Assembly: GCA_000283635.1 (NCBI GenBank)
Contig: HE613569.1
Coordinates: 1,389,501 to 1,453,500 of the forward strand
Direction of reading: 5' to 3'
DNA from: Streptococcus macedonicus ACA-DC 198
Lineage (GTDB): Bacteria > Bacillota > Bacilli > Lactobacillales > Streptococcaceae
Length of the DNA: 64,000 nt
Below, in pieces: positions 10,200-45,868 of the stretch; the stretch's first letter is position 1; each line of letters opens with the position of its first letter. The notes beneath the pieces were generated by a model. The model was not told the origin of the DNA, searched no databases, and saw only the letters and a list, made by a program, of their open reading frames with translations. Both the position numbers and the translations under genes were made by a program.

Positions 10200-10687
10200 T
10201 AGAGAATGACCTCCTTTGTTTTCACAGCAGAGGGTTCTGACATCACAATCTGTTCCTTGGCTTGTGCGATTTCCTCATCAAGGGTTTTATCCATAGTTAG
10301 CCCTTTCAGTTTTTCTGGATTGGAAACCAATTTCTGAAGCAACTCATCTAAGTGCTTGTCTAAGAGCGACTTATCCTTAGCATAGAAATGCAGGTAATCT
10401 CCTTGCCAACTAATGGCAATAGGAAGGTTTTCTGATTCCACCAATTCCTTGAATTTCTCCACATCAACTGGTTTATCCAAAATGTCTTTTGAGATATTCA
10501 GCGACTCAATGGCATATGGACTTTGAAGGAGTTCTTCTAACTTTTGAACCCCAACTTTATAAGCCGAGTCTTGTGCTAGGGCGTGTCTGGCTGACCACTC
10601 TAAGAGTTTGAGAAGGACCTTCACCGTAAACATAGCACTGCGTTCCGCATATTGAACCGCTTGGTGTTCCTGTTGTTCGGATGACAT
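10199..10687 (-). CDS. PcfB-like (DUF3801) conjugation protein
   Basis: A 162-aa protein resembling the DUF3801/PcfB family, named for PcfB of enterococcal pCF10, and typically encoded directly before the VirD4 coupling protein, as here. Motifs include a helical N-terminus (AERSAMFTVKVLLKLLEW), ISWQGDYLHFYAKDKSLLDK and a C-terminal helical tail. The second of two consecutive ATGs (10687) sits 5 nt after AGGAGG and was taken as the start. In pCF10 the relative is needed for transfer; the exact role here is inferred. Confidence 0.75.
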   Translation of the reverse strand: MSSEQQEHQAVQYAERSAMFTVKVLLKLLEWSARHALAQDSAYKVGVQKLEELLQSPYAIESLNISKDILDKPVDVEKFKELVESENLPIAISWQGDYLHFYAKDKSLLDKHLDELLQKLVSNPEKLKGLTMDKTLDEEIAQAKEQIVMSEPSAVKTKEVIL

Positions 10688-10723
10688 CATTTCCTCCTTT
10701 ATATGATTCCCCATCAAAACAAT

Positions 10724-10752
10724 AGGGTGCTTTCATGATACGAAAGCACCCT
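10724..10752 (-). terminator. Hairpin between CPBP and PcfB-like genes
   Basis: A perfect 11-bp inverted repeat AGGGTGCTTTC / GAAAGCACCCT with a 7-nt loop, followed on the minus strand by a moderately T-rich stretch (TATTGTTTTG). It separates the accessory ICE genes from the transfer operon. It could reduce read-through rather than fully stop transcription. Confidence 0.6.
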
Positions 10753-10763
10753 TGATTTTGGTA

Positions 10764-11345
10764 TCACAATAAAGATAGGAAAAAGACGATTCCATTCCAA
10801 GACAGGTGAACGAGAGTTGAGCTCAAGCAGTCTGTTTGCCCTCTAACCACACCAAGTGTGAGACCTAAACTCCCATAAAGCACCCAAGTGAATAGACTGG
10901 ATGGGTGATGAGCTAAAGCAAAAAGGGAACTCGTTAACAACACTTGAACCACTGGTTGAGACAAGACTCTCCACAACACCTCTCTATAAAAGACTTCTTC
11001 CACAACACTGGCATTAAGGAGAAAAAGAATAAAGGACAGAACAGGAATCTGGTCTTGAACAGTCACTAACGTTTCTTGGTTTGGTTCGCTTCCTGAAAAT
11101 AGAGCACTCATAATAAGAGCAATACTTACCATGACACCTAGACTACCACACACCCAAAGCCCTCTCTCCTTAAAGGATAGGTTTCTTTTAGGTATCTGGT
11201 ACCTTTTCCAGCTCCACAATATCAGGGCTAGAAACGTCACTTGTAAAACAGGTAACCATGCCCCATTTAGCCAACCAACCAGGTACAAACTCACTAGGAG
11301 ACCATTGACATGAATGGCTCCGTACATCACTAATAGTCGTTTCAT
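10764..11345 (-). CDS. CPBP-family intramembrane metalloprotease
   Basis: A 193-aa polytopic membrane protein of the CPBP (CAAX protease and bacteriocin-processing, Abi) family. Conserved motifs are VVEEVFYREVLWR (EExxxR) near residue 114, FALAHHPSS near 142 and HLSWNGIVFF near the end, which supply the glutamates, arginine and histidines of the active site. Starts after GGAGATAGCG, with the upstream gene's stop codon inside this spacer. CPBP genes are common in this ICE family; bacteriocin immunity or protein processing are possible roles but the substrate is unknown. Confidence 0.85.
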   Translation of the reverse strand: MKRLLVMYGAIHVNGLLVSLYLVGWLNGAWLPVLQVTFLALILWSWKRYQIPKRNLSFKERGLWVCGSLGVMVSIALIMSALFSGSEPNQETLVTVQDQIPVLSFILFLLNASVVEEVFYREVLWRVLSQPVVQVLLTSSLFALAHHPSSLFTWVLYGSLGLTLGVVRGQTDCLSSTLVHLSWNGIVFFLSLL

Positions 11346-11347
11346 CG

Positions 11348-11581
11348 CTATCTCCTAAACAAGTCTTCATAGTCAATCTCTAAGACGCTCACTATTTTCT
11401 CCACCCATTTGCCTTGTGGCATGAGACGATGGGATTTGTAGTGACGAAAGGTTTGGTAGAGACGGTTAAACTCACTAGGGTAGACGTATTGTCCCTTAAA
11501 CATCTGTCGAGCAAGGTCGGCCCATGTCATACCCTTTTCCAAAACAAGACTTTCTAAATTTTCCCAAAAGCGTTCGTTCAT
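11348..11581 (-). CDS. Small HTH-like ICE protein
   Basis: A 77-aa protein starting MNERFWENLESLVLEKGMTW. Residues 18-75 resemble a divergent helix-turn-helix of the Cro/CI type (MTWADLARQM, then FNRLYQTFRHYKSHRLMP and WVEKIVSVLEIDYEDLF). The second half matches the way such proteins end (a helix followed by DYEDLF). It is the middle gene of a tight row between the Spx-like and CPBP genes. Function is not known; a DNA-binding role is inferred from the pattern only. Confidence 0.62.
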   Translation of the reverse strand: MNERFWENLESLVLEKGMTWADLARQMFKGQYVYPSEFNRLYQTFRHYKSHRLMPQGKWVEKIVSVLEIDYEDLFRR

Positions 11582-20985: not shown

Positions 20986-22821
20986 TTATTTTTTACTGTT
21001 ATCGTCATCCATTGAAAGCACTGACAAGAAGGCTTCTTGTGGCACTTCAACAGAACCAATAGCCTTCATACGTTTTTTACCTGCTTTTTGTTTTTCAAGC
21101 AATTTACGTTTACGAGAAACGTCACCACCGTAACATTTGGCAAGCACGTTTTTACGAAGAGCTTTAATATCTGAGCGTGCAACGATTTTTTGACCGATAG
21201 CTGCTTGAATTGGCACTTCGAATTGTTGACGTGGAATGATTTTCTTGAGTTTTTCAACGATTAATTTACCACGTTCATAAGCAAATTCGTTGTGAACAAT
21301 GAAGCTGAGCGCATCAACTTTATCACCGTTAAGGAGAATATCCATTTTAACCAATTTTGATTTACGGTATTCTGAAATTTCGTAATCAAAACTTGCATAA
21401 CCACGTGTTGATGATTTCAATTTATCAAAGAAATCAAAGACAATTTCAGCAAGCGGAATCTGGTAAATGATATTGACACGATTTTCATCAATGTAATCCA
21501 TTGTCACAAAGTCGCCACGTTTGCGTTGGGCAAGTTCCATAACTGCTCCGACAAATTCTTGTGGAACCATGATTTGTGCTTTCACATATGGTTCTTCGAT
21601 ACTTGCAACCTTAGTTGGGTCTGGGAATTCAGACGGATTTGACACCTCAAGCATTTCGCCGTCAGTCGTGTTAACATGGTAAACAACGGATGGCGCTGTC
21701 ATAATCAAATCAATGTTGAATTCACGTTCCAAACGTTCTTGGATAACGTCCATGTGAAGCAAACCAAGGAAACCACAACGGAAACCAAAGCCAAGAGCTT
21801 GTGATGTTTCAGGCTCGAATTGGAGACTTGCATCGTTCAATTGTAATTTTTCAAGTGCTTCACGGAGGTCGTTGTATTTATTTGATTCGATTGGGTAAAG
21901 ACCAGCAAATACCATTGGGTTCATTTGTTTGTAACCATGAAGCGGTGCTTCTGCTGGATTTTCAGCAAGAGTTACTGTATCACCCACACGAGTATCAGCA
22001 ACTGTCTTGATTGACGCTGCGATATAACCAACATCACCAGTTGCTAAGAAATCACGTCCAACAGCTTTTGGCGTGAAGATACCAACTTCTGTAACATCAA
22101 ACGTTTTACCATTTGACATCAATTGAATCTTATCACCAGGTTTTACCATACCATTAACGATACGAACTTGCAGAATAACCCCGCGGTAAGCATCATAAAC
22201 AGAGTCAAAGATAAGCGCTTGAAGCGGTGCTTCAACATCTCCTGCTGGCGCTGGCACGTACTCAACAATTTGTTCAAGGATTTCTTCAATCCCGATACCT
22301 GCTTTTGCTGAAGCAAGCACAGCCTCTGAAGCATCAAGACCAATCACATCTTCGATTTCTTGACGCACACGCTCTGGATCTGCTGCTGGCAAATCAATTT
22401 TATTGATAACTGGCAGAATTTCCAAATCATTATCAAGGGCTAGGTAAACATTGGCAAGGGTTTGAGCTTCGATACCTTGTGCCGCATCGACAACCAAAAT
22501 TGCCCCCTCACAAGCCGCCAAAGAACGTGACACCTCATATGAAAAGTCAACGTGTCCTGGGGTGTCAATCAAGTGGAAAATGTAGGTTTCACCGTCTTTA
22601 GCCGTGTAGTTCAACTCAATCGCATTAAGCTTAATCGTGATACCACGCTCACGCTCCAAATCCATGCTATCCAAGAGTTGAGCTTGCATTTCACGACTAG
22701 AAACCGTCTCAGTTTTTTCCAAAATACGGTCAGCCAAAGTTGACTTCCCGTGGTCAATATGTGCAATAATAGAGAAATTACGAATCTTCTCTTGTCGTTT
22801 TTTTAATTCTTGAATATCCAT
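20986..22821 (-). CDS. lepA: Elongation factor 4 (LepA)
   Basis: A 611-aa translational GTPase that back-translocates or remodels stalled ribosomes. G motifs: [15 protein letters not shown] (G1), RGITIK (G2), [11 protein letters not shown] (G3), NKIDLP (G4) and SAKAGIG (G5). The LepA-specific C-terminal domain ends with [20 protein letters not shown] and [16 protein letters not shown]. Full length. The CRISPR array ends about 160 bp upstream and is transcribed toward it. Confidence 0.97.
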
Positions 22822-22981: not shown

Positions 22982-25900
22982 GTTTTATGGTTACTTAAAT
23001 CTTGAGAGTACAAAAACTTTCTAATACGAATTTTCGTATATTGTTTTGTTTTACGGTTACTTAAATCTTGAGAGTACAAAAACCTGGATAAATACGGAAT
23101 ACCAGTTAGTAATGTTTTACGGTTACTTAAATCTTGAGAGTACAAAAACTAAAGAAATTACCTTTGAAGTGCCTATTTCGTTTTACGGTTACTTAAATCT
23201 TGAGAGTACAAAAACTGCAAATCGAGCTAGGTTGGATTACTATCGGTTTTACGGTTACTTAAATCTTGAGAGTACAAAAACGAAAAAGTCGTAATGTTTG
23301 ACGGTAAGCCGGTTTTACGGTTACTTAAATCTTGAGAGTACAAAAACCCAGAAGCGTTCGCTGATTTGAAAACAAAATGTTTTACGGTTACTTAAATCTT
23401 GAGAGTACAAAAACTTCATACATCACCTCAAAATACAATCATTTGTTTTACGGTTACTTAAATCTTGAGAGTACAAAAACTAGTACGTGGCATAGGTATC
23501 TACCACAAGCGTTTTACGGTTACTTAAATCTTGAGAGTACAAAAACATGAGAAAACTCTTACATATCAAACACTTGGTTTTACGGTTACTTAAATCTTGA
23601 GAGTACAAAAACTCTGGGCTATAAGTGACATCAACATACGAGTTTTACGGTTACTTAAATCTTGAGAGTACAAAAACCAATGTGCCTAACCAATGAAAAC
23701 AAGCTTTGTTTTACGGTTACTTAAATCTTGAGAGTACAAAAACAGCTTGTTGTGACAAGGTCTTCATGGCTTGGTTTTACGGTTACTTAAATCTTGAGAG
23801 TACAAAAACAATTGTGCTTCTACTGCTCTATTCAGTTCAGTTTTACGGTTACTTAAATCTTGAGAGTACAAAAACAACCTACATACCCTTGTTTACCTGT
23901 TTTACGTTTTACGGTTACTTAAATCTTGAGAGTACAAAAACCTGGTACTGGTTACTTTAACAGCGGTTATCGTTTTACGGTTACTTAAATCTTGAGAGTA
24001 CAAAAACATAAAGTTGTTGACTATGATGAAGAAATAAGTTTTACGGTTACTTAAATCTTGAGAGTACAAAAACATACGCTTTAAAACTAGCTATGACTAA
24101 CGAGTTTTACGGTTACTTAAATCTTGAGAGTACAAAAACCGTATATCAAACTCAGGAATAACCGCATTCGGTTTTACGGTTACTTAAATCTTGAGAGTAC
24201 AAAAACAGTGAACCGCCAAACCACTTGGGGACGGCGGTTTTACGGTTACTTAAATCTTGAGAGTACAAAAACTCGTAGAGACGATACTAACTACAGGCCT
24301 ATGTTTTACGGTTACTTAAATCTTGAGAGTACAAAAACACACGAACTGGGCTGCTTGTTTTGTTTGAAGTTTTACGGTTACTTAAATCTTGAGAGTACAA
24401 AAACTTACTGCGATAGAATTATAGCCTGCTTCATGTTTTACGGTTACTTAAATCTTGAGAGTACAAAAACCTACTTAACGTCCTTACGCATTTCGATGGA
24501 GTTTTACGGTTACTTAAATCTTGAGAGTACAAAAACTAGCGATTGCAGGAATTGCCGCTTTAGTAGGTTTTACGGTTACTTAAATCTTGAGAGTACAAAA
24601 ACAAAACTTATTATGTTTGGTTGCGAAAGGCAGTTTTACGGTTACTTAAATCTTGAGAGTACAAAAACGCTAGAGCCGTATCAACCTAGCTGGAAGTAGT
24701 TTTACGGTTACTTAAATCTTGAGAGTACAAAAACGCTGTTTCAGAAACATTGAGTTTAGCGGTTGTTTTACGGTTACTTAAATCTTGAGAGTACAAAAAC
24801 GTTCATCTTGCGTGAGCCCAGCTTCTTTGCGTTTTACGGTTACTTAAATCTTGAGAGTACAAAAACCACTCGCTTATGTTGAACGTGAGCTTGTAGGTTT
24901 TACGGTTACTTAAATCTTGAGAGTACAAAAACCAAGCATTGTTTTGTAAACTGCCATTTGCAGTTTTACGGTTACTTAAATCTTGAGAGTACAAAAACAC
25001 AGTGCAAAACCTTCATAATTGATGAAAAGTTTTACGGTTACTTAAATCTTGAGAGTACAAAAACGCCAATGGAAACTGATAACAGCTTGTCATAGTTTTA
25101 CGGTTACTTAAATCTTGAGAGTACAAAAACCAAGCATTGTTTTGTAAACTGCCATTTGCAGTTTTACGGTTACTTAAATCTTGAGAGTACAAAAACGTGA
25201 AGACACCTGCATTGAACATCTGCGTCGTTTTACGGTTACTTAAATCTTGAGAGTACAAAAACATATCGCTTATGCTGATAATGCCACAGGCGGTTTTACG
25301 GTTACTTAAATCTTGAGAGTACAAAAACAAGCAGGGCTTTTTCTTTTTGGGCAGGCGCGTTTTACGGTTACTTAAATCTTGAGAGTACAAAAACTTAGAA
25401 GTGCAGATGTTAGAAAAGAAATCAGTTTTACGGTTACTTAAATCTTGAGAGTACAAAAACTGGGAGAAAGATAGCAGTTATCCAATCATTGTTTTACGGT
25501 TACTTAAATCTTGAGAGTACAAAAACAGAGATTGTCAACAAGAACCAATCAACCAAGTTTTACGGTTACTTAAATCTTGAGAGTACAAAAACAAGCAGGG
25601 CTTTTTCTTTTTGGGCAGGCGCGTTTTACGGTTACTTAAATCTTGAGAGTACAAAAACTTAGAAGTGCAGATGTTAGAAAAGAAATCAGTTTTACGGTTA
25701 CTTAAATCTTGAGAGTACAAAAACTGGGAGAAAGATAGCAGTTATCCAATCATTGTTTTACGGTTACTTAAATCTTGAGAGTACAAAAACAGAGATTGTC
25801 AACAAGAACCAATCAACCAAGTTTTACGGTTACTTAAATCTTGAGAGTACAAAAACGCCTTTGATTCACTGGTATGTGTCGTTGCAGTTTTACGGTTACT

Positions 25901-26317
25901 TAAATCTTGAGAGTACAAAAACTCGTTTAGCTTCCAACGCATTCAACTGTTGGTTTTACGGTTACTTAAATCTTGAGAGTACAAAAACTGTTCCTTGTGT
26001 ATAACCACCAAAGACTTCGTTTTACGGTTACTTAAATCTTGAGAGTACAAAAACTTGCCGACAACGCTACTGGTGGCGGATTTAGTTTTACGGTTACTTA
26101 AATCTTGAGAGTACAAAAACCCGAATTTGGCTTGACCTTGTTTTGCAATGTTTTACGGTTACTTAAATCTTGAGAGTACAAAAACCTGATTAGATAGCCA
26201 TTTTCTCGCAGCCATGTTTTACGGTTACTTAAATCTTGAGAGTACAAAAACACCAAAGATATGCTGACAACTACGCAGATTGTTTTACGGTTACTTAAAT
26301 CTTGAGAGTACAAAAAC
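22982..26317 (-). CRISPR. Type II-A CRISPR array, 51 repeats / 50 spacers
   Basis: Repeat length is 36 bp. In the transcribed (minus) orientation it begins GTTTTTGTACTCTCAAG and ends TTAAGTAACCGTAAAAC, very close to the S. thermophilus CRISPR1 repeat. Counting each copy gives 51 repeats with 30-nt spacers, except two of 31 nt (23348-23378, 24140-24170) and two of 29 nt (23613-23641, 26121-26149). The leader-distal repeat (22982-23017) differs by one base (T for C at position 7 on the plus strand), as expected for the oldest end; the others look identical. New spacers are added at the 26317 end. Five spacers are repeats of others, leaving 45 different ones. Confidence 0.99.
25329..25820. repeat. 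Tandem duplication of a four-spacer block in the array
   Basis: Spacers at 25329-25358, 25395-25424, 25461-25490 and 25527-25556 recur in the same order at 25593-25622, 25659-25688, 25725-25754 and 25791-25820. The period is 264 bp (four repeat-spacer units). Identity was read base by base. Confidence 0.97.
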
Positions 26318-26385
26318 CTCAAATCGTCATTTTTAGTTTTTGTATCCTACAAATCGATTATAGTTTGATTAGGCAAAAAAGTCAA
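26318..26385 (-). promoter_or_regulatory. CRISPR leader with pre-crRNA promoter
   Basis: On the minus strand a near-consensus promoter is present: TTGACT (26385-26380), 17 nt, TATAAT (26362-26357). The -35 box overlaps the csn2 stop codon. The leader ends with ATTTGAG directly against the first repeat, the same leader anchor as S. thermophilus CRISPR1, where it guides spacer insertion. The leader also contains GATACAAAAAC, complementary over 9 nt to the start of the first repeat. Confidence 0.88.
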
Positions 26386-27431
26386 TCTTTGTCCTTTAAA
26401 AAGCTTATTTCTAGCGGGTCTATCTTAGGTATTGGATATACAACAGACTTATCATACTGGTATAAACTATTTAAAATCTTAATGGCTACCATATCTGAAA
26501 TTCCTAAACTAATATATGAAATCTGATCACTAAACAGATAACTTGCATTTTTTTGAAGTAATATCAAAAACTCACTTTTACTTGGAATATTATTTGATGG
26601 GTATTTACCAATAAATCTTTCATACATAAAATCTAAGTCAAACAATGATTCAATAAAGTCTGAAACAATGGTAACATGTTCAACTGTTTCTTTAGTAACA
26701 TATAAATAACTTTCATTTGACGGGAAAATTGTACAATAAAAATTAGGAAATTTCTCAGTCATTTGCGTAATAGTCTTACAAATAGTTATAAAAGAAGAAT
26801 AATCAAGATAGTCATCCATATTTTTGAAAATTAAAAGGATATTGTTAGTATCGTTTGATAATCTCTCCTGCAACATCTTAAGCAAAAACATTACTTTAGT
26901 CTCGTTATCGACAAACTCAAAAGAGATATTTCTTCCCTGATAATTAAAATAGGGCTGAAAATATTTGCTCAATAATTGTTCAGAAGTGACAACACAACTC
27001 TCGGTATGGTAAATCACATCTTTAATTGATAAATCAAGGTTATGATTAACTGTTAAGGAAATTTTATCTAATTTATCATTAATCTCATCAACTTCAGTCA
27101 TAACATCAACAGTATTTAAGTGTAGCTTCAAAAAATCACAAGCAACTGTTCCTCTTTTATAAGACATTTGTTCTAGTAAATCTTGAATATCTGAAATTGA
27201 AATGACACTAAAACTGTTTTTCTTTAAACTCTTACCCTCACATAAAATTTCAGGTTCTTCTTGATTAAAAAGCGATAAATCTTCTTCAGAGTATTTTTTA
27301 CCGTCAAAATACCACATAAAAATTTGCCACATGTAGTATTTCAATTGTTGATTTTGACCAATAATCTGCGTAAACTGCCCAAAATTAATATCTAAATTAT
27401 CCTTATAAGGATGTGTAAAATGTAATCTCAT
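26382..27431 (-). CDS. csn2: Csn2 adaptation protein, long form
   Basis: A 349-aa Csn2 of the long subtype found with CRISPR1-type systems. Csn2 forms a ring on DNA ends and works with Cas1, Cas2 and Cas9 in acquiring spacers. Recognisable stretches include the N-terminal MRLHFTHPYKDNLDINFGQF, LLIFKNMDDYLDYSSF near residue 200, and a C-terminal helical end. The length equals the S. thermophilus CRISPR1 protein (about 350). The start overlaps the cas2 stop by ATGA. Confidence 0.93.
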   Translation of the reverse strand: MRLHFTHPYKDNLDINFGQFTQIIGQNQQLKYYMWQIFMWYFDGKKYSEEDLSLFNQEEPEILCEGKSLKKNSFSVISISDIQDLLEQMSYKRGTVACDFLKLHLNTVDVMTEVDEINDKLDKISLTVNHNLDLSIKDVIYHTESCVVTSEQLLSKYFQPYFNYQGRNISFEFVDNETKVMFLLKMLQERLSNDTNNILLIFKNMDDYLDYSSFITICKTITQMTEKFPNFYCTIFPSNESYLYVTKETVEHVTIVSDFIESLFDLDFMYERFIGKYPSNNIPSKSEFLILLQKNASYLFSDQISYISLGISDMVAIKILNSLYQYDKSVVYPIPKIDPLEISFLKDKD

Positions 27432-27751
27432 ATGACCACCAATTTATTATCACTAACCACTTCTTCTTGTTTAGTTTTACCACCAACTATTAAAGTCATT
27501 TCTGAAAACTGTTTTTCCGTTACTGCCAAAAGCCTGACATTACCAGCCGGTAAGTTACTTTGTTGCAATCTCTTATAGAACTTATTAGCAAAACTACGAT
27601 TTGGACACGTTCTATAATAAACAGAAAATTGCAACATTTCAAAACCATTAGCAATCAATTCTTTCCTAAAATTTCGATAAACTCTTTTTTCTTGTGCAGT
27701 TTCCATTGGTAAATCAAAAAAACATAATAATCTCATTGCTGCATACCTCAT
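27428..27751 (-). CDS. cas2: CRISPR-associated endonuclease Cas2
   Basis: A 107-aa Cas2 that bridges two Cas1 dimers in the spacer integration complex. It begins MRYAAMRLLCFFDLPMETAQ, with the conserved aspartate in FFDLP, and continues with FRKELIANGFEMLQFSVYYR. I kept the first ATG (27751), 1 nt after the cas1 stop with GGAG 7 nt upstream, because CRISPR1 Cas2 proteins begin MRY. Confidence 0.96.
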   Translation of the reverse strand: MRYAAMRLLCFFDLPMETAQEKRVYRNFRKELIANGFEMLQFSVYYRTCPNRSFANKFYKRLQQSNLPAGNVRLLAVTEKQFSEMTLIVGGKTKQEEVVSDNKLVVI

Positions 27752-27752
27752 A

Positions 27753-28664
27753 TTAAGACTCCAATTCTAAACTAGAAACGACTGGACAAAAGAATTTACT
27801 TGTATCCTTTTTATCAATGCATTTTATAAATCCTTGAACGTATTTATCCATAGCACCAGTCACCGTACAATTTTCATTGCCATACTTAATTTTGGCATTT
27901 AAAAGATTAGTTAAATTAAGACGATACTCATATTTCAAATACTCTTTATCGCGCAAATTTTGGTAAACCCAAACATCTACTATTTGTCTAAATGGTTCCA
28001 TTAAGTCATCAACTAAATTGAATTGATTATATTCATTTCTATGAAAAATACCAACTAAAGGGTTCAGACCATACCCTTCAATAATCCTTGCCATCTGCGC
28101 CCTAAAAATAGCATAGCCATAATTTAAACCAGCATTAATAACATCAGCTTCCTGTTGAGTCACGCGCGTAAATTGTTTGCCAAAAAGTTCATTAAAATAA
28201 ACTTTGGCGGCGTGTCCCTCACGATTAGTCTTATCCCCTAACTCAATGTTATCCTTGTAATCAGCAAGCAATTGAATAGCATCAATATCTCTTTCAAATA
28301 TTGATAATACATCTTGTTGATTATTGATTTTAAAATAGGTAACAATTTGCCATAGCTTATCCTTTTGTTCTTGACTCCATTCCAATTGTTTTTGTAATCT
28401 TTTATAAGCTCTCGAATGCCCATTAGGCGCATGGTAAATTCCCGTAGGTAGGTGTTGATTATCACAAACAATAAGGGCAATATTGTATTTACTTAAAGCA
28501 CTTAATAATCTAAGAGTAACAACCGTATCTCCACCCTCTGCTACAATAATGGAAATATCACTTAATGGAATAGTATATTCTTCTCCTAATTTCTTGATAA
28601 CAATATTGTCCAGTTTTAAGCGCATTTTCTCACTTTGATTAACATGCACAACTCTCCAAGTCAT
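27753..28664 (-). CDS. cas1: CRISPR-associated endonuclease Cas1
   Basis: A 303-aa type II-A Cas1 integrase. It begins MTWRVVHVNQSEKMRLKLDN. Metal-binding residues are within NRECHAAKVYF-like NREGHAAKVYFNELFG (glutamate, near residue 147), GIFHRNEYNQFNLVDDLMEP (histidine near residue 200, aspartates after it). I chose ATG 28664: AAGGAG is 6 nt upstream. A frame from 28694 would begin inside the tracrRNA terminator hairpin and is rejected. Confidence 0.95.
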   Translation of the reverse strand: MTWRVVHVNQSEKMRLKLDNIVIKKLGEEYTIPLSDISIIVAEGGDTVVTLRLLSALSKYNIALIVCDNQHLPTGIYHAPNGHSRAYKRLQKQLEWSQEQKDKLWQIVTYFKINNQQDVLSIFERDIDAIQLLADYKDNIELGDKTNREGHAAKVYFNELFGKQFTRVTQQEADVINAGLNYGYAIFRAQMARIIEGYGLNPLVGIFHRNEYNQFNLVDDLMEPFRQIVDVWVYQNLRDKEYLKYEYRLNLTNLLNAKIKYGNENCTVTGAMDKYVQGFIKCIDKKDTSKFFCPVVSSLELES

Positions 28665-28686
28665 CATATTCTCCTTTGATACAACG

Positions 28687-28788
28687 AAAAGCACCCCATG
28701 TCAAAACATGGGGTGCTTGAATTCGGCATAAAGCCTTATCTTTGTAGGCTCAGCAAGATTTAAGTAACCGTGCAAGGCGTCCCTTGCA
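28687..28788 (-). ncRNA. tracrRNA of the resident (CRISPR1-type) system
   Basis: It lies between cas9 and cas1, on the cas strand. A 17-nt anti-repeat (28754-28770) is perfectly complementary to the array repeat (CAAGATTTAAGTAACCG). It is followed by CTACAAAGATAAGGC, the nexus-like region known from S. thermophilus CRISPR1 tracrRNA, and a 12-bp terminator stem (28689-28700 / 28707-28718) with a T-tract. An extra 5' hairpin TGCAAGG GACG CCTTGCA occupies 28771-28788. Expected length is about 100 nt. Confidence 0.95.
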
Positions 28789-28836: not shown

Positions 28837-31800
28837 TTATTTTTTATTATTTTTAAAATCCAATTTAGGTTTGTCACCTTCTTTTTTAACAAAATACTTA
28901 TTACCAAGAACATCTGTGCGAACCTTATATATTGAGATGTTGGGTTTATTTAAACTTTTTATACAACGTCCAACTTTATCTGCTTCTCCCAAAGCTTCAA
29001 CTAATTCTTGAACATTATCAAATTTCTCTTTATCATATGGTTTCAATTCCACATAATGATTTACATTTGGCATTGTTCGAGATAAAAAGCGATAAATTTC
29101 TTGTTCGCCACTAGCTATATCTTTTATCAAAATCAAATCATTTCGGTAAAGAGTAAACTTAAATTCAGATTTTTTACCAATGCCTTCTTTTTCCTTTATC
29201 GCATCATATTTTTCTTGTGAAATATGATAATTACCAGTTCCTTTTTCAAAACTTAAATCAGAATATTTTAATCCCATCAGTTCATATTTTAAAGTCTCTG
29301 GATTAAAGTAAACGTCTGCCCTCCAAGGATTAATTGATTGTAAAATAACTTTATTTCTGCTTTCCTCAGGTGTTATATCAATACAATTTCCTAATTTTTT
29401 ATCATAGTACTTAAGAGATTTAATCGGTGTGCCTTTTCCTTTTTTGCTGTATTTGCAGATTAAGCCGTTTTCTCTACGATATTCTTCAAATGGATTACAT
29501 TTGACATCATTTTTCCCATCTTCAGATTTTTTTGTAGTTGGATAGTCTCCAAGAATCACCTCAATGACATTTTCCCATGTTAAAGGATCTTTTTGATACA
29601 TTAAGAATTGTGTCTTATCTTTGTTATATTTCTTAACAAAGGTATCAAATCCATTTTGACTGTAAATATCTTTGATTTTCCCTAAAACATAAGTTTCTTC
29701 TTTTTTATCTTTTCCAATTTTAGCTTTTCGTGTTGAATAGATAGTTGCATCAGAAACCTTACGATTATATTTTGAATCAACTTGATAAGAGAACAAAATT
29801 TCGTCCTCAAATCCTTTACTTGAAATCGTGTTAACAAAACCTTGATATGGTGGTTGGAATACCAATTCTTTGTATTCATTATCAGAAACGGACAAAATTT
29901 CCCCTGTTTGTTTATCAACAACTTGATTATTTCCATAATCCACAAACATTGGATTGTCTTGTTTTTCCCACAATTTCAATTGACTGGAAGCAGCGATAAT
30001 CAAAGCATCAACAGCGTGATGATGGTATGTTTCACGCGATTTATCAATCTTCCATTTTCGACGTAGTTGTGAGGTGAATTGACCTCTAACAACAGAAACT
30101 TTAGTATCTTTGCCCAACTCTCTTAATGCAGATTGAAGACTATTAAGGACAACGCGTGATGCGTATCGAGTATCTACTAAATTACGCTCAATAAATTTCT
30201 TCTTAACTTCAATTTTATCGATATTCTCTGTTGTTAAAAGATAGTCACGCTTTTTCTTTCCAAGTCCTTTTTGCTTTAAGACATACTCTTTCATTTCTCT
30301 AAATGACCATGCTGCATCCATAGAATCAATTACTTGATAAGGAGTTTTTTGTCCTTTTTCTTGATTTGTCCAAGAATAAACTAATACTTTATTTGCTAAA
30401 CTATCATCAAAAGAAAGCGACAGAGGTAAAATATGATCAATTTCAAAATTATTTGAATTATGTACTAACTCTTGAATTGGAATTGGTTTGCCAGAATACA
30501 AACAACGTTCACCTTGTTGATACCAAAGTCGAATTTTTGTTTCTAACTGTTTATTTCCATGAAAGACCTCATCAGGTAATTTATCAGTACCATTATAAAG
30601 ATAAGCTGCACGTTTTAAAGCGTCATCTTTTTCTTTCTTATTTTCCTTATTCCTTTTATTAATAAATTTCTTCTCATCATCAGCATTCTTATCACGTGGC
30701 ATTTCAATAACAATCTTATCAAAATCACCATATTTTTTAACCGCTGCGTTAATAATCTTTATTGTTTGTCGAACAGATTTAGCTACAACTGGATTATAAA
30801 TTTCATCTGTGATTTCTTTTTCATCAATAGTTTTTATATTTTTTGATGATTTTTTCTTAACTTTGAATTTCTCTAATCTTGTTAGAATTGTCATCTGCTC
30901 ATCAGATGTAGCATACAATTCAGGAATTAATTCATTCATTAGTTTAGCTGAAAAACTATGCCAACCTTTATTGAAAGCTGTGCTTTGACTTTTCCTAACA
31001 TTAATGATTTCAGAGATTTGTTCTTCAGTAAACTGATTTGGCAAATTACGCTTGATGGCATCTTCAATACCTTCGCGTTCTGTATTAAGTGTTAAAATAT
31101 CAGCTAATTTGTCAAGGACTTCTCTTGATAAATAATCAATGTTAACTGAATCTAAGTTGAATTTTAATTTTCGATAAGGCTCAAATGTATGTAAGTCTGG
31201 TTTGCCTTTATCATCTTCACGATATCCTTTAATTTCATCAACTTTACAATCTAGTATTTTAGCAATTTCTTTTAATAATTTAGCAGGACCTAATATTGCA
31301 GTATTTTTAGCAAATTCAACTAAAGATTCCTTTTGTTCAGTAGATAATTTACCAGTTTCTGTTGGAACTTTCAAATTGTTTAAATCATTTAAAAAGTTAT
31401 ATTCTTGTGCGGTATAGGAAGCTTTAGAAGCACGATATTCATCAGGATAAAAGTTACACTTACCAATTAAAATGCCAAAAATATTTTCGAGCGTTGTACC
31501 ATCTGTGCGAAAACGTCCATAATCTGTACGAGATTTTTCATTACCTGGTCCATGGTAATATTTTCTTTTTTGAGTCAAGATTTCAACATAATCATCAATA
31601 AACTCAGCAGTAATTTTTTTATTGTAATCCGCTTGAGTTTCTAAAATTTTACGTGCCTCTTTTTCATAATCAGAAGTTGAAAAAACATTGATTAATCGAT
31701 GAGCCTCACCATTTTCATCATAAACAGTAAAATTGCCTCGTAACTGACCATATTTTTCCAAACGTTCCAATTGAATTTGACCAGGAGTTTTGGTTTTTAG

Positions 31801-32229
31801 CAAGCGACGGTTTTCATCAATAGATTTTGCATAGTCAGTACTACCAGTTGAATCGTCTTCTGCATCATCTAAGTATGAAATCCCTCGTCTTTTTGAGATT
31901 GTTCGTAAAGCAGCAAATAGCTCTTCATTTGTAAGTTGTTCTGTTAACCCTTTTACACGAAGTTCATAAGGATTTAAGTTCAAATTTCTAAAATCAGTAA
32001 CAATCCCATATTTCTCAAATAAATCACGAACTCGTTTAACACGGTGTTTTTTACGACGATTTAAGCGTCTTGAGCCACGGAATCCTCTTCGCTCTGCATT
32101 ATTTTCTGCATTTGCAGCAGAAAAAAGACGTGAATTAGCATGGACTACTTTACCAGTTTTCGCTTCAATAATACCAACACCAACAGATGCAATACCAATA
32201 TCCAAACCTAAAATTTTTCCATTTGTCAT
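28837..32229 (-). CDS. cas9: Cas9 endonuclease, compact type II-A (St1Cas9-like)
   Basis: A 1130-aa RNA-guided nuclease, clearly orthologous to S. thermophilus CRISPR1 Cas9. RuvC-I LGLDIGIASVGVG contains catalytic Asp10. The arginine-rich bridge helix follows (RRLNRRKKHRVKRVRDLF). RuvC-II FDKIVIEMPRD, HNH FEIDHILPLSLSFDDSLANK near residue 600, and RuvC-III TYHHHAVDALIIAAS are all intact. The C-terminal wedge and PAM-interacting region ends ISIYKVRTDVLGNKYFVKKE plus a lysine-rich tail. No truncation is visible. It is the first gene of the cas9, tracrRNA, cas1-cas2-csn2, array series. Confidence 0.98.
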   Translation of the reverse strand: MTNGKILGLDIGIASVGVGIIEAKTGKVVHANSRLFSAANAENNAERRGFRGSRRLNRRKKHRVKRVRDLFEKYGIVTDFRNLNLNPYELRVKGLTEQLTNEELFAALRTISKRRGISYLDDAEDDSTGSTDYAKSIDENRRLLKTKTPGQIQLERLEKYGQLRGNFTVYDENGEAHRLINVFSTSDYEKEARKILETQADYNKKITAEFIDDYVEILTQKRKYYHGPGNEKSRTDYGRFRTDGTTLENIFGILIGKCNFYPDEYRASKASYTAQEYNFLNDLNNLKVPTETGKLSTEQKESLVEFAKNTAILGPAKLLKEIAKILDCKVDEIKGYREDDKGKPDLHTFEPYRKLKFNLDSVNIDYLSREVLDKLADILTLNTEREGIEDAIKRNLPNQFTEEQISEIINVRKSQSTAFNKGWHSFSAKLMNELIPELYATSDEQMTILTRLEKFKVKKKSSKNIKTIDEKEITDEIYNPVVAKSVRQTIKIINAAVKKYGDFDKIVIEMPRDKNADDEKKFINKRNKENKKEKDDALKRAAYLYNGTDKLPDEVFHGNKQLETKIRLWYQQGERCLYSGKPIPIQELVHNSNNFEIDHILPLSLSFDDSLANKVLVYSWTNQEKGQKTPYQVIDSMDAAWSFREMKEYVLKQKGLGKKKRDYLLTTENIDKIEVKKKFIERNLVDTRYASRVVLNSLQSALRELGKDTKVSVVRGQFTSQLRRKWKIDKSRETYHHHAVDALIIAASSQLKLWEKQDNPMFVDYGNNQVVDKQTGEILSVSDNEYKELVFQPPYQGFVNTISSKGFEDEILFSYQVDSKYNRKVSDATIYSTRKAKIGKDKKEETYVLGKIKDIYSQNGFDTFVKKYNKDKTQFLMYQKDPLTWENVIEVILGDYPTTKKSEDGKNDVKCNPFEEYRRENGLICKYSKKGKGTPIKSLKYYDKKLGNCIDITPEESRNKVILQSINPWRADVYFNPETLKYELMGLKYSDLSFEKGTGNYHISQEKYDAIKEKEGIGKKSEFKFTLYRNDLILIKDIASGEQEIYRFLSRTMPNVNHYVELKPYDKEKFDNVQELVEALGEADKVGRCIKSLNKPNISIYKVRTDVLGNKYFVKKEGDKPKLDFKNNKK

Positions 32230-32268: not shown

Positions 32269-32297
32269 ATTTTACTCTTTTATAAACTAAAAAACAA
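32269..32297 (-). promoter_or_regulatory. cas9 promoter
   Basis: TTGTTT (32297-32292), 17 nt, TAAAAT (32274-32269) on the minus strand, about 40 nt before the cas9 start. The -35 box uses the T-tract of the ndk terminator, so terminator and promoter are fused. Confidence 0.7.
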
Positions 32298-32300
32298 GCG
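32269..32300. repeat. Left copy of a 32-bp direct repeat
   Basis: Reads ATTTTACTCTTT, a 6-bp variable part (TATAAA), then CTAAAAAACAAGCG. The partner is at 33017-33048, with 29 of 32 positions equal. The two copies flank ndk and the tracrRNA relic. Confidence 0.85.
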
Positions 32301-32334: not shown

Positions 32335-32751
32335 TTATTCCCCAAACCAGAGGGCGATTTCACGTTCTACTGATTCTGGTGAGTCTGAACCGTGAACAAT
32401 GTTAAATATTGCGCCACCTTCGTCTGGTGCTTGAGCATAGTCTCCGCGGATTGTCCCTGGAAGAGCTTCTTTAGGATTTGTCGCTCCCATCATTGTACGC
32501 CATGAAGTGACGACTTCATTTCCAGACATAACGCCAGTAATTACTGGACCACTTGTCATAAAATCAACGATTAGTGGGAAAAATGGGCGGTCAACCAAAT
32601 CAGCATAATGTTTTTCTAATAATTCTGGGGTTGCCATGCGCATCTCCAATTTTTCAATTGTAAAACCACGTCGTTCAATACGGTGAAGCACCTCACCAAC
32701 AAGCCCGCGTTTCACGCCATCTGGTTTAATCATAAAGAAAGTTTTTTCCAT
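32335..32751 (-). CDS. ndk: Nucleoside diphosphate kinase
   Basis: A 138-aa kinase that equalises nucleoside triphosphate pools through a phosphohistidine. Start [23 protein letters not shown]/Mg-binding [18 protein letters not shown] near residue 88, and the active-site motif [20 protein letters not shown] near the C-terminus. Full length. It separates the CRISPR-Cas locus from the second tracrRNA-like sequence. Confidence 0.97.
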
Positions 32752-32890
32752 GTAAACAATCCAACCTATCTAAATAAATTCAGTTTTTATTTTACCATAA
32801 AAGAAAACTTTTGAAAAATATTAAAAGGTGTTTTCACTAAAACTTTAGTAAGTTTCATGACATTCTATTCCTGCTAAATCCTAAATACCA

Positions 32891-32977
32891 GTTTTGGAAC
32901 CATTCGAAACAGCACAGCAAGTTAAAATAAGGCTTTGTCCGTACACATTTTGGCACCCGATTCGGGTGCGTTTTTTT
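32891..32977 (+). ncRNA. Orphan tracrRNA-like sequence of the S. pyogenes/CRISPR3 type (relic)
   Basis: The sequence reads GTTTTGGAACCATTCGAAAC, then AGCACAGCAAGTTAAAATAA, then GGCTTTGTCC and a terminator stem GCACCC/GGGTGC with seven T. This is the anti-repeat, bulge, nexus and terminal hairpin of Spy/St3-type tracrRNAs. It predicts a repeat beginning GTTTTAGAGCTGTGCTG and ending GAATGGTTCCAAAAC, which is not present in the window. The middle hairpin (AACTTGAAAAAGTG in S. pyogenes) is missing; the sequence jumps from GTCCGTACACA to TTTTGGCACCC. No good promoter is seen upstream. It is on the opposite strand to the resident cas genes. Likely a remnant of a lost second type II-A locus. Confidence 0.85.
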
Positions 32978-33016
32978 GTGCCCTTACAGATAATTTCAAC
33001 AAAACTAAGTAATTTT

Positions 33017-33048
33017 ATTTTACTCTTTAAAATACTAAAAAACAAGCG
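33017..33048. repeat. Right copy of a 32-bp direct repeat
   Basis: Matches 32269-32300 at 29 of 32 positions. It keeps the same promoter-like spacing on the minus strand (TTGTTT at 33045-33040, 17 nt, TAAAAT at 33022-33017), pointing at the tracrRNA relic. Confidence 0.85.
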
Positions 33049-33065
33049 TTTTCAAGGCGCTTGTT
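33035..33065 (-). terminator. Terminator of the 56-aa gene
   Basis: AACAAGCG (33041-33048) / CGCTTGTT (33058-33065), followed on the minus strand by a T-run and AG. Confidence 0.8.
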
Positions 33066-33083
33066 TTCTGTTTTATAATCCCT

Positions 33084-33254
33084 CTAATTCACCAACCAAC
33101 CCCAGAAAAATGGGAGGGCAAAGGCAATTAAGCCACAAATCACAAAGAGGGATTTCAGCCATTTTTGAGGGATAGTCGTTGATTTAATCCAAAGAAGAAT
33201 GGCAAACAGCCACGAAACGGCAAATAATAGCCAATAATACCATGCAAGGGACAT
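33084..33254 (-). CDS. 56-aa two-helix membrane protein
   Basis: A frame from ATG 33254 to TAG 33086-33084. It begins MSLAWYYWLLFAVSWLFAIL, then has a basic loop (WIKSTTIPQKWLKS) and a second helix (LFVICGLIAFALPFFWGWLV). The ATG lies 1 nt after the stop of the DUF1461 gene with AGGA upstream, and a strong terminator follows, which supports it as the last gene of that operon. No function is recognised. Confidence 0.75.
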   Translation of the reverse strand: MSLAWYYWLLFAVSWLFAILLWIKSTTIPQKWLKSLFVICGLIAFALPFFWGWLVN

Positions 33255-33255
33255 C

Positions 33256-33936
33256 TTAATCGTTCCTTTCTACCTTAATGGTTTTCGGATGTTTCTGTTG
33301 GTCTTGCAGACGTTTAGCCAATTGACGGCGAGCAATGACAACTAAGCCAATCATAATAACTTCGTAAGTGACAAAGAAAATGATAAAACAATGCAAGAAA
33401 AATTCCTCTGGTAAAACCCAGATAATTGGGTCTGTGGCTGGGTTGAACAGCCATGTTGAATCACCAGGGAAAAGCACTTCATGAAATAGCGTAAAAAATT
33501 GGTCAAAGCCAATCAGCAATCCTGCTACTGCAATTAGCACAGGTAAAACAGCTGCTAAAGTAAACGCTCTTTGATGTAGAAAAAGTGATTTTTCAGCTCT
33601 GCTATTTTTCCAAAAACGCCAAGACGGATACAGCAGCACCACAAAAACAGCTTGCGCTAGGTGAAATAAATGCTTAACGTCACGAAAATGCTTGAGCCCG
33701 TCTGTTGATGACGGGAAATCTGGCATAGAAAGGGTGTGCGAAAGTGGATTGGTCAGATAGGTCATCAGAATATTAAAGTTTTTCAAGAGGTCGTCTTTTG
33801 TAATCGTGACTTGAAGGGTTAGTTTGAGCCAATCAACTTCCAAAGGGTAAATCAGCCAAGCACCATAAATAGCTACCAAGACAGCTAGAGCAAGGAGCCA
33901 GAGCCAAGTGCTAAACGTCCAAAGTTTATTTTTCAT
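33256..33936 (-). CDS. TIGR01906/DUF1461 integral membrane protein
   Basis: A 226-aa polytopic protein of the lactobacillales TIGR01906 family. It has a first helix ([20 protein letters not shown]), the family motif [17 protein letters not shown] with [12 protein letters not shown] after it, and three further helices ([30 protein letters not shown] and [20 protein letters not shown]). The start at MKNKLWTF (33936) overlaps the stop of the phosphatase gene; an ATG 15 nt upstream is possible. The function is not known; it usually follows a NagD-like phosphatase, as here. Confidence 0.85.
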
Positions 33937-34699
33937 CAAAATTCCATTCATCTAAGCTAGCAAGGACATGGTCAGGTTTTACTGGAAGGGTAGGTACTTC
34001 TTCTGGTTTGGTGAAACCAGTCGTCACAAGCAAAGTAGCAATATCATTTTGAATTCCTGCCATAATATCTGTTAAATAATTATCACCAACCATGATAGCT
34101 TCTTCACGTTTAACCCCCAGAACATCCAAAGCTTTATTCATGATAATCGCATTTGGTTTGCCGATAAAGACTGGCTGCACACGTGTTGCAGTCTCCAAGA
34201 GTTTATTAATCGAACCAGCCCCTGGCATTAACCCACGCTCCGTTGGGATATTCAAATCAGGATTCGTTCCAATAAAGACTGCTCCTTTTTGTATGGCAAG
34301 CGTTGCAATGGCAAGCATTTCATAAGTTAGTTGCGTATCTAGTCCGACAACCACATATGCTGGATTTTCAGTATCTTCAACATAGCCAGCCTCAGCAATA
34401 GCTGTTTTCAAACCCGTTTCACCAATCACATAAACTGTTTTTCCACGATTCATGTCATTCATGTAATCAATCGTCGCCATTGTTGCTGTATAAATCGTTT
34501 CAAGCGGTGTATGCACATTGAATTGTGTCGCAAGCATTTCTTGAACTTTTTCTGGTGTGCGAGTTGTATTATTCGTCACCAAAACATACGGAATATTGCG
34601 TTCTTGCAGACGTTGAATAAAACGTTCCCCAGCAGGAATACGATTTTTCCCTTTGTAAATTGTTCCATCTAAATCAATCAAATAGCCTTTATAAGTCAT
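33926..34699 (-). CDS. NagD-like HAD sugar phosphatase (TIGR01457 type)
   Basis: A 257-aa HAD hydrolase, class IIA. Motif [15 protein letters not shown] (catalytic aspartates, residues 5-18), motif [14 protein letters not shown], motif [17 protein letters not shown] and motif IV ILVGDN-like [14 protein letters not shown]. Substrates of this subgroup are small phosphorylated sugars or nucleotides; the exact one cannot be read. ATG 34699 has GGAGG 7 nt upstream, so the ATG at 34711 inside that site was rejected. Confidence 0.9.
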
Positions 34700-44359: not shown

Positions 44360-44483
44360 CTTTATAACCAAGCTTTCTAATTACCATAACAAAGCCACCT
44401 TAACCAAAAATTAAGCACTTTTAAAGCAGAGATTATTAGGTATTAAACAACCTCTAGCCATATTTAAATTAGCTCTATAATTT

Positions 44484-45868
44484 CTGTAGTGGGTAACTCC
44501 ACTGTGGAATTATAGGGCTTTTTGAATATACACAAAAAGTCCCATATGACTTATAATGAAAAGCGACCAAACTCACATTAGAAAGCATCATATGGAACAA
44601 CTCTATCATACTACACAATTGATTGGAATTAAAGACAAAAATATCACGTTGAACAAAGTTTTGAAACACAAGACACACATTGAGATGATAGCTACACTGG
44701 ACTACGCTCCTGGAAACTGTAATCACTGTCAGGGAAAACAGATAAAATATGACTTCCAAAAGCCATCGAAAATACCATTTCTTGAGGTGGCTGGCTTCCC
44801 CAGTCTTATTAGGCTCAAGAAACGGCGTTTTCAATGCAAGAATTGTCGTAAGGTAACCGTCTCTGAAACCAGCTTGGTACAGAAAAACTGTCAAATCTCT
44901 GAACCTCTCAGACAGAAGGTCGCGCAAGCCTTGGTCAATCGTCAAGCCTTAACACACATTGCTCAGGATTTAGCGATTTCAACCTCTACCGTACACCGAA
45001 AACTCAGGGAATTCACTTTCAAAGAGGACTTCTCTCGTCTGCCTGAAATCCTCTCCATCGATGAGTTTTCGTATCAAAAAGGAAAGCTTGCCTTCATTGC
45101 ACAGGATTTTGAGACCAAGAAAATCATCACCATCCTTGAGAATCGGACACAAACAACCATTCGCAATCATTTCTTCAGGTATTCTAAAGAGGCTAGGAAC
45201 AGCGTGAAAGTCGTTACCGTTGATATGTCTGGCAGCTACATCCCGATGATTCCTAAGCTCTTTCCCAAAGCTAAGATTGTTATTGACCGTTTCCACATTG
45301 TTCAACACATGAGCCGTGCTCTTAATCACACACGTATTCAACTTATGAAACAGTTCGACAAGAAATCTTTAGAATATCGTGCCCTCAAATACTACTGGAA
45401 ATCCGTGCTGAAAGACAGTCGTAAACTCTCTCTAAACAGCTTTCGTTCAAGGACTTTTGGAGAAACGCTCACACCAAAAGAATGTTTGACCGAGATATTC
45501 CACCTTGTCCCTGAGTTGAAAGGGTATTATGACCTCTACCAGCTCCTACTGTTCCACCTGCAAGAGAAAAACGCTGACTACTTCTTTGACTTGATTGAAG
45601 AAGCCTTACCACATCTCAATCAAACCTTTAAAACAGCTCTGAGAACTATCCTTCACCACAAGCAACACGTCATAAACGCTATTGAGCTTCCTTATTCTAA
45701 CGCCAAACTGGAGGCAACCAACAAACTCATCAAAGACATCAAGCGTAATGCCTTTGGATTCAGGAACTTTGACAACTTTAAAAAACGTATCTTTATCGCT
45801 TTAAACATGCAAAAAGAGAAGACGCATTTCGTCTCCTCTCGTGCTTAGCTATAAGTCACCCACTACAG
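44484..45868 (+). mobile_element. ISL3-family insertion sequence
   Basis: About 1385 bp. Inverted ends CTGTAGTGGGTAACTC (44484 on) and, on the complement, CTGTAGTGGGTGACTT (from 45868). One transposase gene. The 8-bp target duplication usual for ISL3 elements is not evident in the flanks (TATAATTT versus TTGACAAT), so the boundaries may be a little off or the element has recombined. A short hairpin (GGGCTTTTTG / CAAAAAGTCCC) lies between the left end and the gene. Confidence 0.85.
44592..45848 (+). CDS. ISL3-family transposase
   Basis: A 418-aa DDE transposase. The N-terminal zinc-finger-like part has CNHCQG and FQCKNCRKVTV; a helix-turn-helix follows (ALTHIAQDLAISTSTVHRKL). The catalytic part includes LSIDEFSYQKGK (Asp), VTVDMSGSYIPMIP (Asp), IDRFHIVQHMSRALN, and the C-terminal YSNAKLEATNKLIKDIKRNA with the glutamate. 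I chose ATG 44592 (MEQLYHTTQLIGIKDKN), the usual N-terminus. No stop or frameshift; it seems intact. Confidence 0.93.
   Translation: MEQLYHTTQLIGIKDKNITLNKVLKHKTHIEMIATLDYAPGNCNHCQGKQIKYDFQKPSKIPFLEVAGFPSLIRLKKRRFQCKNCRKVTVSETSLVQKNCQISEPLRQKVAQALVNRQALTHIAQDLAISTSTVHRKLREFTFKEDFSRLPEILSIDEFSYQKGKLAFIAQDFETKKIITILENRTQTTIRNHFFRYSKEARNSVKVVTVDMSGSYIPMIPKLFPKAKIVIDRFHIVQHMSRALNHTRIQLMKQFDKKSLEYRALKYYWKSVLKDSRKLSLNSFRSRTFGETLTPKECLTEIFHLVPELKGYYDLYQLLLFHLQEKNADYFFDLIEEALPHLNQTFKTALRTILHHKQHVINAIELPYSNAKLEATNKLIKDIKRNAFGFRNFDNFKKRIFIALNMQKEKTHFVSSRA

Follow-up and report, generated by a model that had tools for sequence, protein, structure and literature searches.

A solitary tracrRNA in Streptococcus macedonicus as the probable scar of a CRISPR-Cas9 locus deleted between repeat and anti-repeat

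We analyzed a stretch of 64,000 nucleotides from Streptococcus macedonicus ACA-DC 198 (referred to as the window), which contains a Spy/CRISPR3-type II-A tracrRNA standing alone between ndk and a lit-like gene. With a probability of about 0.92, this lone tracrRNA is the scar of a second CRISPR-Cas9 locus that was deleted by recombination between a CRISPR repeat and the tracrRNA anti-repeat. Three features point to one deletion, which would span approximately 8 kb in an intact relative: the identity of the first 28 nt to a CRISPR repeat, the missing promoter box, and an upstream flank which in relatives lies at the array-distal end of the locus. Recombination of this kind looks like a recurrent route of loss for Spy-type loci in streptococci and in a few other Lactobacillales. 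For the coordinates of all features see Table 1.

Identity and surroundings of the lone tracrRNA

The element matches the covariance model RF02348 with a score of 80.6 bits against a gathering score of 70 bits, on which grounds a chance match was rejected as its origin. A failed covariance search had been named as a possible refutation by the original prediction, which was made from the letters of the sequence; the search instead matched a Spy-type tracrRNA over the gathering score. The element shares with other tracrRNAs of the Spy/CRISPR3 type an anti-repeat, a nexus, a terminator (a stem at 32953-32969 with a T-rich tail) and the full-length model match. It differs from them in that its 5' end is a CRISPR repeat, the promoter box is missing and no partner Cas9 or array was found in the genome. 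The anti-repeat is predicted to form a duplex of -49.9 kcal/mol with the Spy-type repeat of S. gallolyticus BI02 (200 shuffles: mean -12.4, lowest -23.7 kcal/mol). A match to RF01335 (CRISPR-DR22; 51.2 bits, gathering score 50 bits) at 32891-32926 on the plus strand overlaps the 5' part of the element and is a clue to its origin from a CRISPR repeat. The original prediction had missed this origin, which indicates how the locus was lost.

Table 1. Features of the window around the lone tracrRNA.
Feature	Position	Strand	Evidence or remark
lepA	20986-22821		
Resident CRISPR1-type array, 51 repeats	22982..26317	-	
Resident cas1, cas2, csn2 (349 aa)	26382-28694		downstream of resident cas9
Resident tracrRNA	28687..28788	-	same strand as resident array; anti-repeat inverted relative to the repeats on the DNA
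Resident CRISPR1-type cas9 (1130 aa)	28837..32229	-	not the partner of the lone tracrRNA
ndk, chromosomal neighbor on the array side	32335..32751	-	Pfam NDK
Former array-distal flank, ndk start to hybrid	32752..32890	.	matches 155 nt before BI02 repeat 1
tracrRNA (RF02348) match	32892-32975	+	all 92 model positions, 80.6 bits, E 2.4e-11
Hybrid repeat/anti-repeat, fused to tracrRNA body	32891..32918	+	28/28 identical to reverse-complemented ATCC 43143 repeat; RF01335 over cut-off
Inferred crossover tract, 17 nt common to repeat and anti-repeat	32902..32918	+	diagnostic letters
tracrRNA body: remaining anti-repeat, nexus, linker without middle hairpin, terminator	32919..32977	+	model alignment and terminator scan
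Former tracrRNA-side flank up to lit	32978..33255	.	18/298 aligned letters differ from BI02 (300 nt after tracrRNA)
lit-like gene, chromosomal neighbor on the tracrRNA side	33256..33951	-	Pfam Lit

In the whole genome (2,142,762 bases, 2 contigs) the lone tracrRNA is the only RF02348 match. A Spy-type Cas9 query found nothing in the genome at E ≤ 1e-50 with two candidates scored, and the resident Cas9 as query returned itself and no second Cas9. The genome-wide search for GTTTTAGAGCTGTG yielded no site with fewer than two mismatches and 14 sites with two, compared with 19 for the reversed control. Within the 64-kb window the Spy-type repeat, at up to 8 mismatches, matched only the tracrRNA element itself. 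The cas genes and the array of the window belong to the resident CRISPR1-type locus, and a second type II-A locus with Spy-type cas9, cas1, cas2, csn2 and array was absent from it. A search of plasmids gave one weak match to ndk. These genome-wide RF02348, Cas9 and repeat searches led us to reject a second Cas9 or array hidden in the genome. The predicted tracrRNA without matching array or cas9 is thereby confirmed, and both a second cas9 with its cognate repeat and a CRISPR3-type Cas9 served from elsewhere in the genome, which the prediction had also considered, failed to turn up at these thresholds. The available part of PMC4051162 mentions one CRISPR locus for S. macedonicus ACA-DC 198.

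The alignment to RF02348 has an 8-nt gap at the middle hairpin, whose absence had led the original prediction to describe the tracrRNA as partly deleted. A hairpin-less tracrRNA of 84-86 nt is, however, also found next to cas9 in five relatives (G050, G264, G265, G252 and G136). Since these loci are intact, the absent hairpin is a normal variant, and its loss by local deletion or damage is ruled out; the prediction itself had stated that the same deletion in strains with a working locus would count against it, and on this point it does. Altered terminators in G077, G120, G222 and G126 were likewise rejected as signs of decay because the intact relatives G118 and G245 share the terminator (compared by eye for L102 and L104).

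The order of the window is lepA, resident CRISPR1-type II-A locus, ndk, lone tracrRNA and lit-like gene. Within the species complex, ndk is flanked by II-A loci on both sides; the window retains the CRISPR1-type locus on the lepA side, and S. gallolyticus BI02 only the Spy-type locus on the lit side. A 32-nt direct repeat (91% identical) lies at 32269-32300 and 33017-33048, so that its two copies enclose ndk and the scar; the second copy runs into a terminator-like hairpin. The Streptococcus small RNA Srn266 (RF02822, 96.8 bits) is found at 44471-44579 on the minus strand.

Related loci and the junction

Relatives keep a Spy-type locus at the corresponding position. In S. gallolyticus BI02, one contig carries in order cas9 (1370 aa), cas1, cas2, csn2, an array of 9 repeats, ndk and lepA, and another contig carries lit followed by the tracrRNA; the gene names were assigned by order, size and Cas9 match. 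In the relative G041 the locus is found on one contig, both flanks match the window and the distance from the first repeat to the tracrRNA is 8.0 kb. In a more distant species (G002), lit, tracrRNA and cas9 are arranged and oriented to one another in the same way. For S. gallolyticus ATCC 43143, the available text of PMC3102119 describes two neighboring CRISPR loci, one with the resident repeat type and one with GTTTTGGAACCATTCGAAACAGCACAGCTCTAAAAC. Taken together, these arrangements place the second, Spy-type locus at the ndk-lit site. They support the predicted former presence of a second II-A system, for which an intact locus was indeed found in the ndk region of BI02 and G041. The two adjacent II-A loci that the prediction mentioned for S. 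gallolyticus are borne out by the published genome, which, as far as that text goes, has exactly both repeat types.

Another relative, G039, was dropped as an example of an intact locus because Spy-type repeats occur on both sides of its ndk; G041 is clean in this respect. In G039 (L155), 19 and 18 Spy-type repeats (8540-9730 and 10374-11503, oriented) flank the ndk-matching stretch, which gives the appearance of an array split around ndk. In S. equinus Sb05 neither Rfam nor alignment found a tracrRNA in the lit-ndk interval (L042), where the sequence is unrelated to the tracrRNA region and, by eye, contains a possible short coding frame.

The element of the window begins GTTTTGGAACC and agrees over its first 28 nt, letter for letter, with the Spy-type repeat of ATCC 43143 as given in the accessible part of PMC3102119. 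The diagnostic letters are repeat-type at hybrid positions 1, 3 and 11, and tracrRNA-type from position 29 on. Compared with BI02, the hybrid has one difference to the repeat within the first 28 positions and differs from the tracrRNA at positions 1, 3, 11 and 22. The crossover is thereby narrowed down to the 17 nt that follow position 11.

In intact loci the anti-repeat mostly starts with TGTTGG, a few bases past a TATAAT-like box. Its third letter is G in 58 of 64 rows, and a GTTTTG start occurs in none of the 64 intact loci versus 15 of the 44 tracrRNA-bearing genomes in which no Spy-type Cas9 was detected (referred to as orphans, see below). The best upstream match to TATAAT reaches 5 or 6 of 6 letters in all 64 intact loci and 3 of 6 in the window. 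No plus-strand promoter-like site was found upstream of the lone tracrRNA, which thus differs from a tracrRNA gene with its own promoter.

Upstream, the window is 95% identical to BI02 over 570 nt, mostly ndk with approximately 140 nt of non-coding sequence, and the similarity ends 3 nt before repeat 1. The non-coding part aligns with 132 matches, 7 mismatches and 16 gap columns; the tracrRNA itself differs at 6 of 84 letters. The aligned sequences demonstrate both the hybrid nature of the junction and the collinearity of the flanks. A deletion scar between direct repeats has just these two features, with the undeleted counterpart here split over two contigs in BI02 and contained in one contig in G041. 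Two details count against a deletion scar: between flank and repeat, BI02 carries an additional GAC (3 nt) that is absent from the window, and the BI02 tracrRNA and cas9 lie on different contigs.

Recurrence of the fusion and its rivals

We searched 284 Streptococcus genomes, one per species, with RF02348 (E ≤ 1e-3) and a Spy-type Cas9 (E ≤ 1e-50). There were 120 tracrRNA matches in 118 genomes, and Cas9 was detected in 78. Of these matches, 70 lie within 6 kb of a Spy-type Cas9 and 6 in genomes with Cas9 elsewhere, which leaves 44 of the 118 tracrRNA-bearing genomes without a detected Cas9. The filters applied across the genus were stricter, and no more than two Cas9 candidates were scored in each genome, so that some Cas9 may have escaped detection. 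A tblastn search of the orphan regions for cas9 gave no match, and the 43 regions other than the window had no match to cas9, cas2 or csn2. In G190 (L101) a weak cas1-like match (25-26% identity; 2018-2821, oriented) lies approximately 7 kb from the orphan tracrRNA and belongs perhaps to another CRISPR type. As the orphan genomes are related to each other, the 44 cases should not be taken as independent events.

All 44 orphan regions, including the window, were read. In 22 of them the sequence upstream of the tracrRNA aligns collinearly, as far as a repeat, with the array-distal flank of an intact relative, and 8 contain a leftover repeat 31-32 nt before the tracrRNA match, as one spacer predicts. 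Altogether 27 show one or both signs of an array::tracrRNA fusion. The remaining 17 show neither, so other routes of loss exist. Two observations run against the fusion: G082 and G053 have a leftover repeat, yet tracrRNA-type first letters, and upstream of the tracrRNA in 12 of 39 orphans, 5 of the 6 letters of TATAAT are matched.

The numbers of loci differ between these counts. Of the 70 intact loci, 64 entered the start-letter and promoter counts, 5 more were read separately and G048 was left out; G002 was entered twice in the table of anti-repeat letters. Five of the 44 orphans are not part of the letter table, the divergence and rate comparisons and the promoter count (39 there), and 3 of the 39 have no alignable core.

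Counted from the distal end, 19 of the 22 mapped fusions involve the first repeat, 2 the second and 1 the third, whereas even use of the relatives' repeats would give approximately 3.5 of 22 among the first three. This bias calls for a further step, such as later erosion, in which leftover repeats may have been removed by subsequent recombination with the fusion. Two orphans have other arrangements. In G089 (L289), at approximately 3979 of the oriented locus, the repeat end TCTAAAA is joined directly to the tracrRNA body ATAAG; this is a fusion with the crossover further downstream. In G216 (L058) an inverted Spy-type repeat, perhaps the product of an inversion, stands just before a truncated tracrRNA remnant.

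Outside the genus, 56 further genomes with a tracrRNA match were found among 395 sampled in the order, and 9 of the 56 had no Cas9 match at 1e-30. Four of the nine were read as fusions, G531 with its flanks and G434, G303 and G310 by eye. Compared with its congener G314, which kept the locus, G531 has a leftover repeat, a 30-nt gap and then the fusion; approximately 7.6 kb are missing between repeat 2 and the anti-repeat, and the downstream flank is 97% identical.

These junctions bear on an alternative route, in which transposons or an illegitimate deletion removed the locus and happened to stop at the tracrRNA. In S. pasteurianus, the sister of S. macedonicus, the loss has been tentatively ascribed to transposases by Lin et al. 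(PMC3102119, in the portion available), and in BI02 the contigs break between tracrRNA and cas9, with a putative transposase-like reading frame beyond the tracrRNA. The window junction, however, lies within the homology of repeat and anti-repeat and carries repeat letters, and 27 of the 44 orphans are array::tracrRNA fusions, which makes this route very improbable.

Slightly less probable still is that the tracrRNA has been kept as an RNA that functions in the absence of a Cas9 of its own, for instance as a riboregulator. In favor of this, the window copy has a well-preserved anti-repeat, nexus and terminator, but no promoter-like site precedes it on the plus strand, its upstream half is derived from the array, and orphan tracrRNAs change about as fast as their flanks. 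In nine related orphan pairs the rate of the tracrRNA relative to the upstream flank was 0.93 (bootstrap 0.44-1.52; 43/796 vs 157/2676 sites), compared with 0.22 (0.09-0.38; 14/735 vs 203/2245 sites) in eight pairs of intact loci. These pairs are few and hand-picked, with no locus used twice; the divergence listing has 14 and 10, partly overlapping. As the orphan tracrRNA changes about like its flank, versus one fifth of that rate in intact loci, the copy in the window is probably a relic and silent. With the promoter box gone as well, active transcription is unlikely, and the fusion, judged from these sequence features, probably yields no transcript and serves no function.

Use of the tracrRNA by the resident CRISPR1-type Cas9, whose gene lies within 1 kb, was rejected as practically excluded, because the predicted duplex with the resident repeat reaches only -5.4 kcal/mol (vs -49.9 kcal/mol with the BI02 repeat) and because dual-RNA and Cas9 can be exchanged only between close relatives, according to the available part of PMC3936727.

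Proposed mechanism and meaning

Based on the junction and the related loci we propose the following mechanism for the loss. A Spy/CRISPR3-type II-A locus consisting of array, csn2, cas2, cas1, cas9 and a divergent tracrRNA gene would once have stood between ndk and lit. As the tracrRNA lies on the strand opposite to the array, its anti-repeat runs in the same direction along the DNA as the CRISPR repeats and forms direct repeats with them. An array-distal repeat would then recombine with the anti-repeat within the approximately 17 shared nucleotides, and everything in between, namely the array, the cas genes and the tracrRNA promoter, would be lost. The product left behind would be a repeat::tracrRNA fusion with an intact terminator. 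We infer that the deletion was a single event and that it occurred by homologous recombination or slippage. A tract of 17 nt is short for RecA-dependent recombination, a point against the proposed mechanism.

The resident CRISPR1-type system provides a comparison. Its tracrRNA is on the same strand as the array, and anti-repeat and repeats are thus inverted on the DNA. A CRISPR1-type Cas9 (E ≤ 1e-100) was found in 36 of the 284 genomes and the tracrRNA core (up to 3 mismatches) in the same 36. Orphans therefore number 0 of 36 for this type versus 44 of 118 for the Spy type (Fisher p 1.1e-6, for genomes that are related and not independent); with matches over the Rfam cut-off only, 28 of 93 Spy-type tracrRNAs are orphans versus 0 of 36 (p 3.1e-5). 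The CRISPR1-type tracrRNA, however, lies between cas9 and cas1, so that most deletions remove it too, whatever its orientation. It is the junctions and not the count of 0/36 versus 44/118 that carry the argument.

Orphan arrays and degenerate loci are already known, as is recombination between CRISPR repeats. Loss of spacers by recombination between repeats is likewise a deletion between near-identical direct repeats, and has been described for a plasmid-borne spacer in the part of PMC6990116 at hand; here, the partner is the tracrRNA anti-repeat and the cas operon is lost as well. Orphan arrays and degenerate loci, as treated in the available sections of PMC8616872, are also remnants after the loss of cas genes, but in the present case the array is lost and the tracrRNA body is kept, with a defined junction. 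The loss of the second locus in S. pasteurianus ATCC 43144 concerns the same species complex and, to judge from the type of repeat, the same locus, but is attributed to transposases in what is available of PMC3102119. Our literature search, which was limited in coverage, found no description of recombination between anti-repeat and repeat or of orphan tracrRNAs as its product; this statement is provisional.

Loss of CRISPR-Cas is usually inferred from absence. Recombination between repeat and anti-repeat leaves a readable signature, with repeat letters fused to a tracrRNA body that has lost its promoter, which makes it possible to count losses in genome sequences; this route is visible in 27 of the 44 orphan Streptococcus genomes. 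It follows for annotation that an Rfam tracrRNA match is no proof of a working CRISPR-Cas9 system. The comparison of the two types suggests that the orientation of the tracrRNA affects the stability of a type II locus. More tentatively, the divergent tracrRNA layout may render Spy-type II-A loci self-excising, with recombination between repeat and anti-repeat as their main natural exit and the scar as a site of re-acquisition. If this is true, the scar, with both flanks and the repeat::tracrRNA fusion, would also serve as a homologous landing site where transformation could restore an intact locus from a relative, and the loci would alternate between present and scar states within a species.
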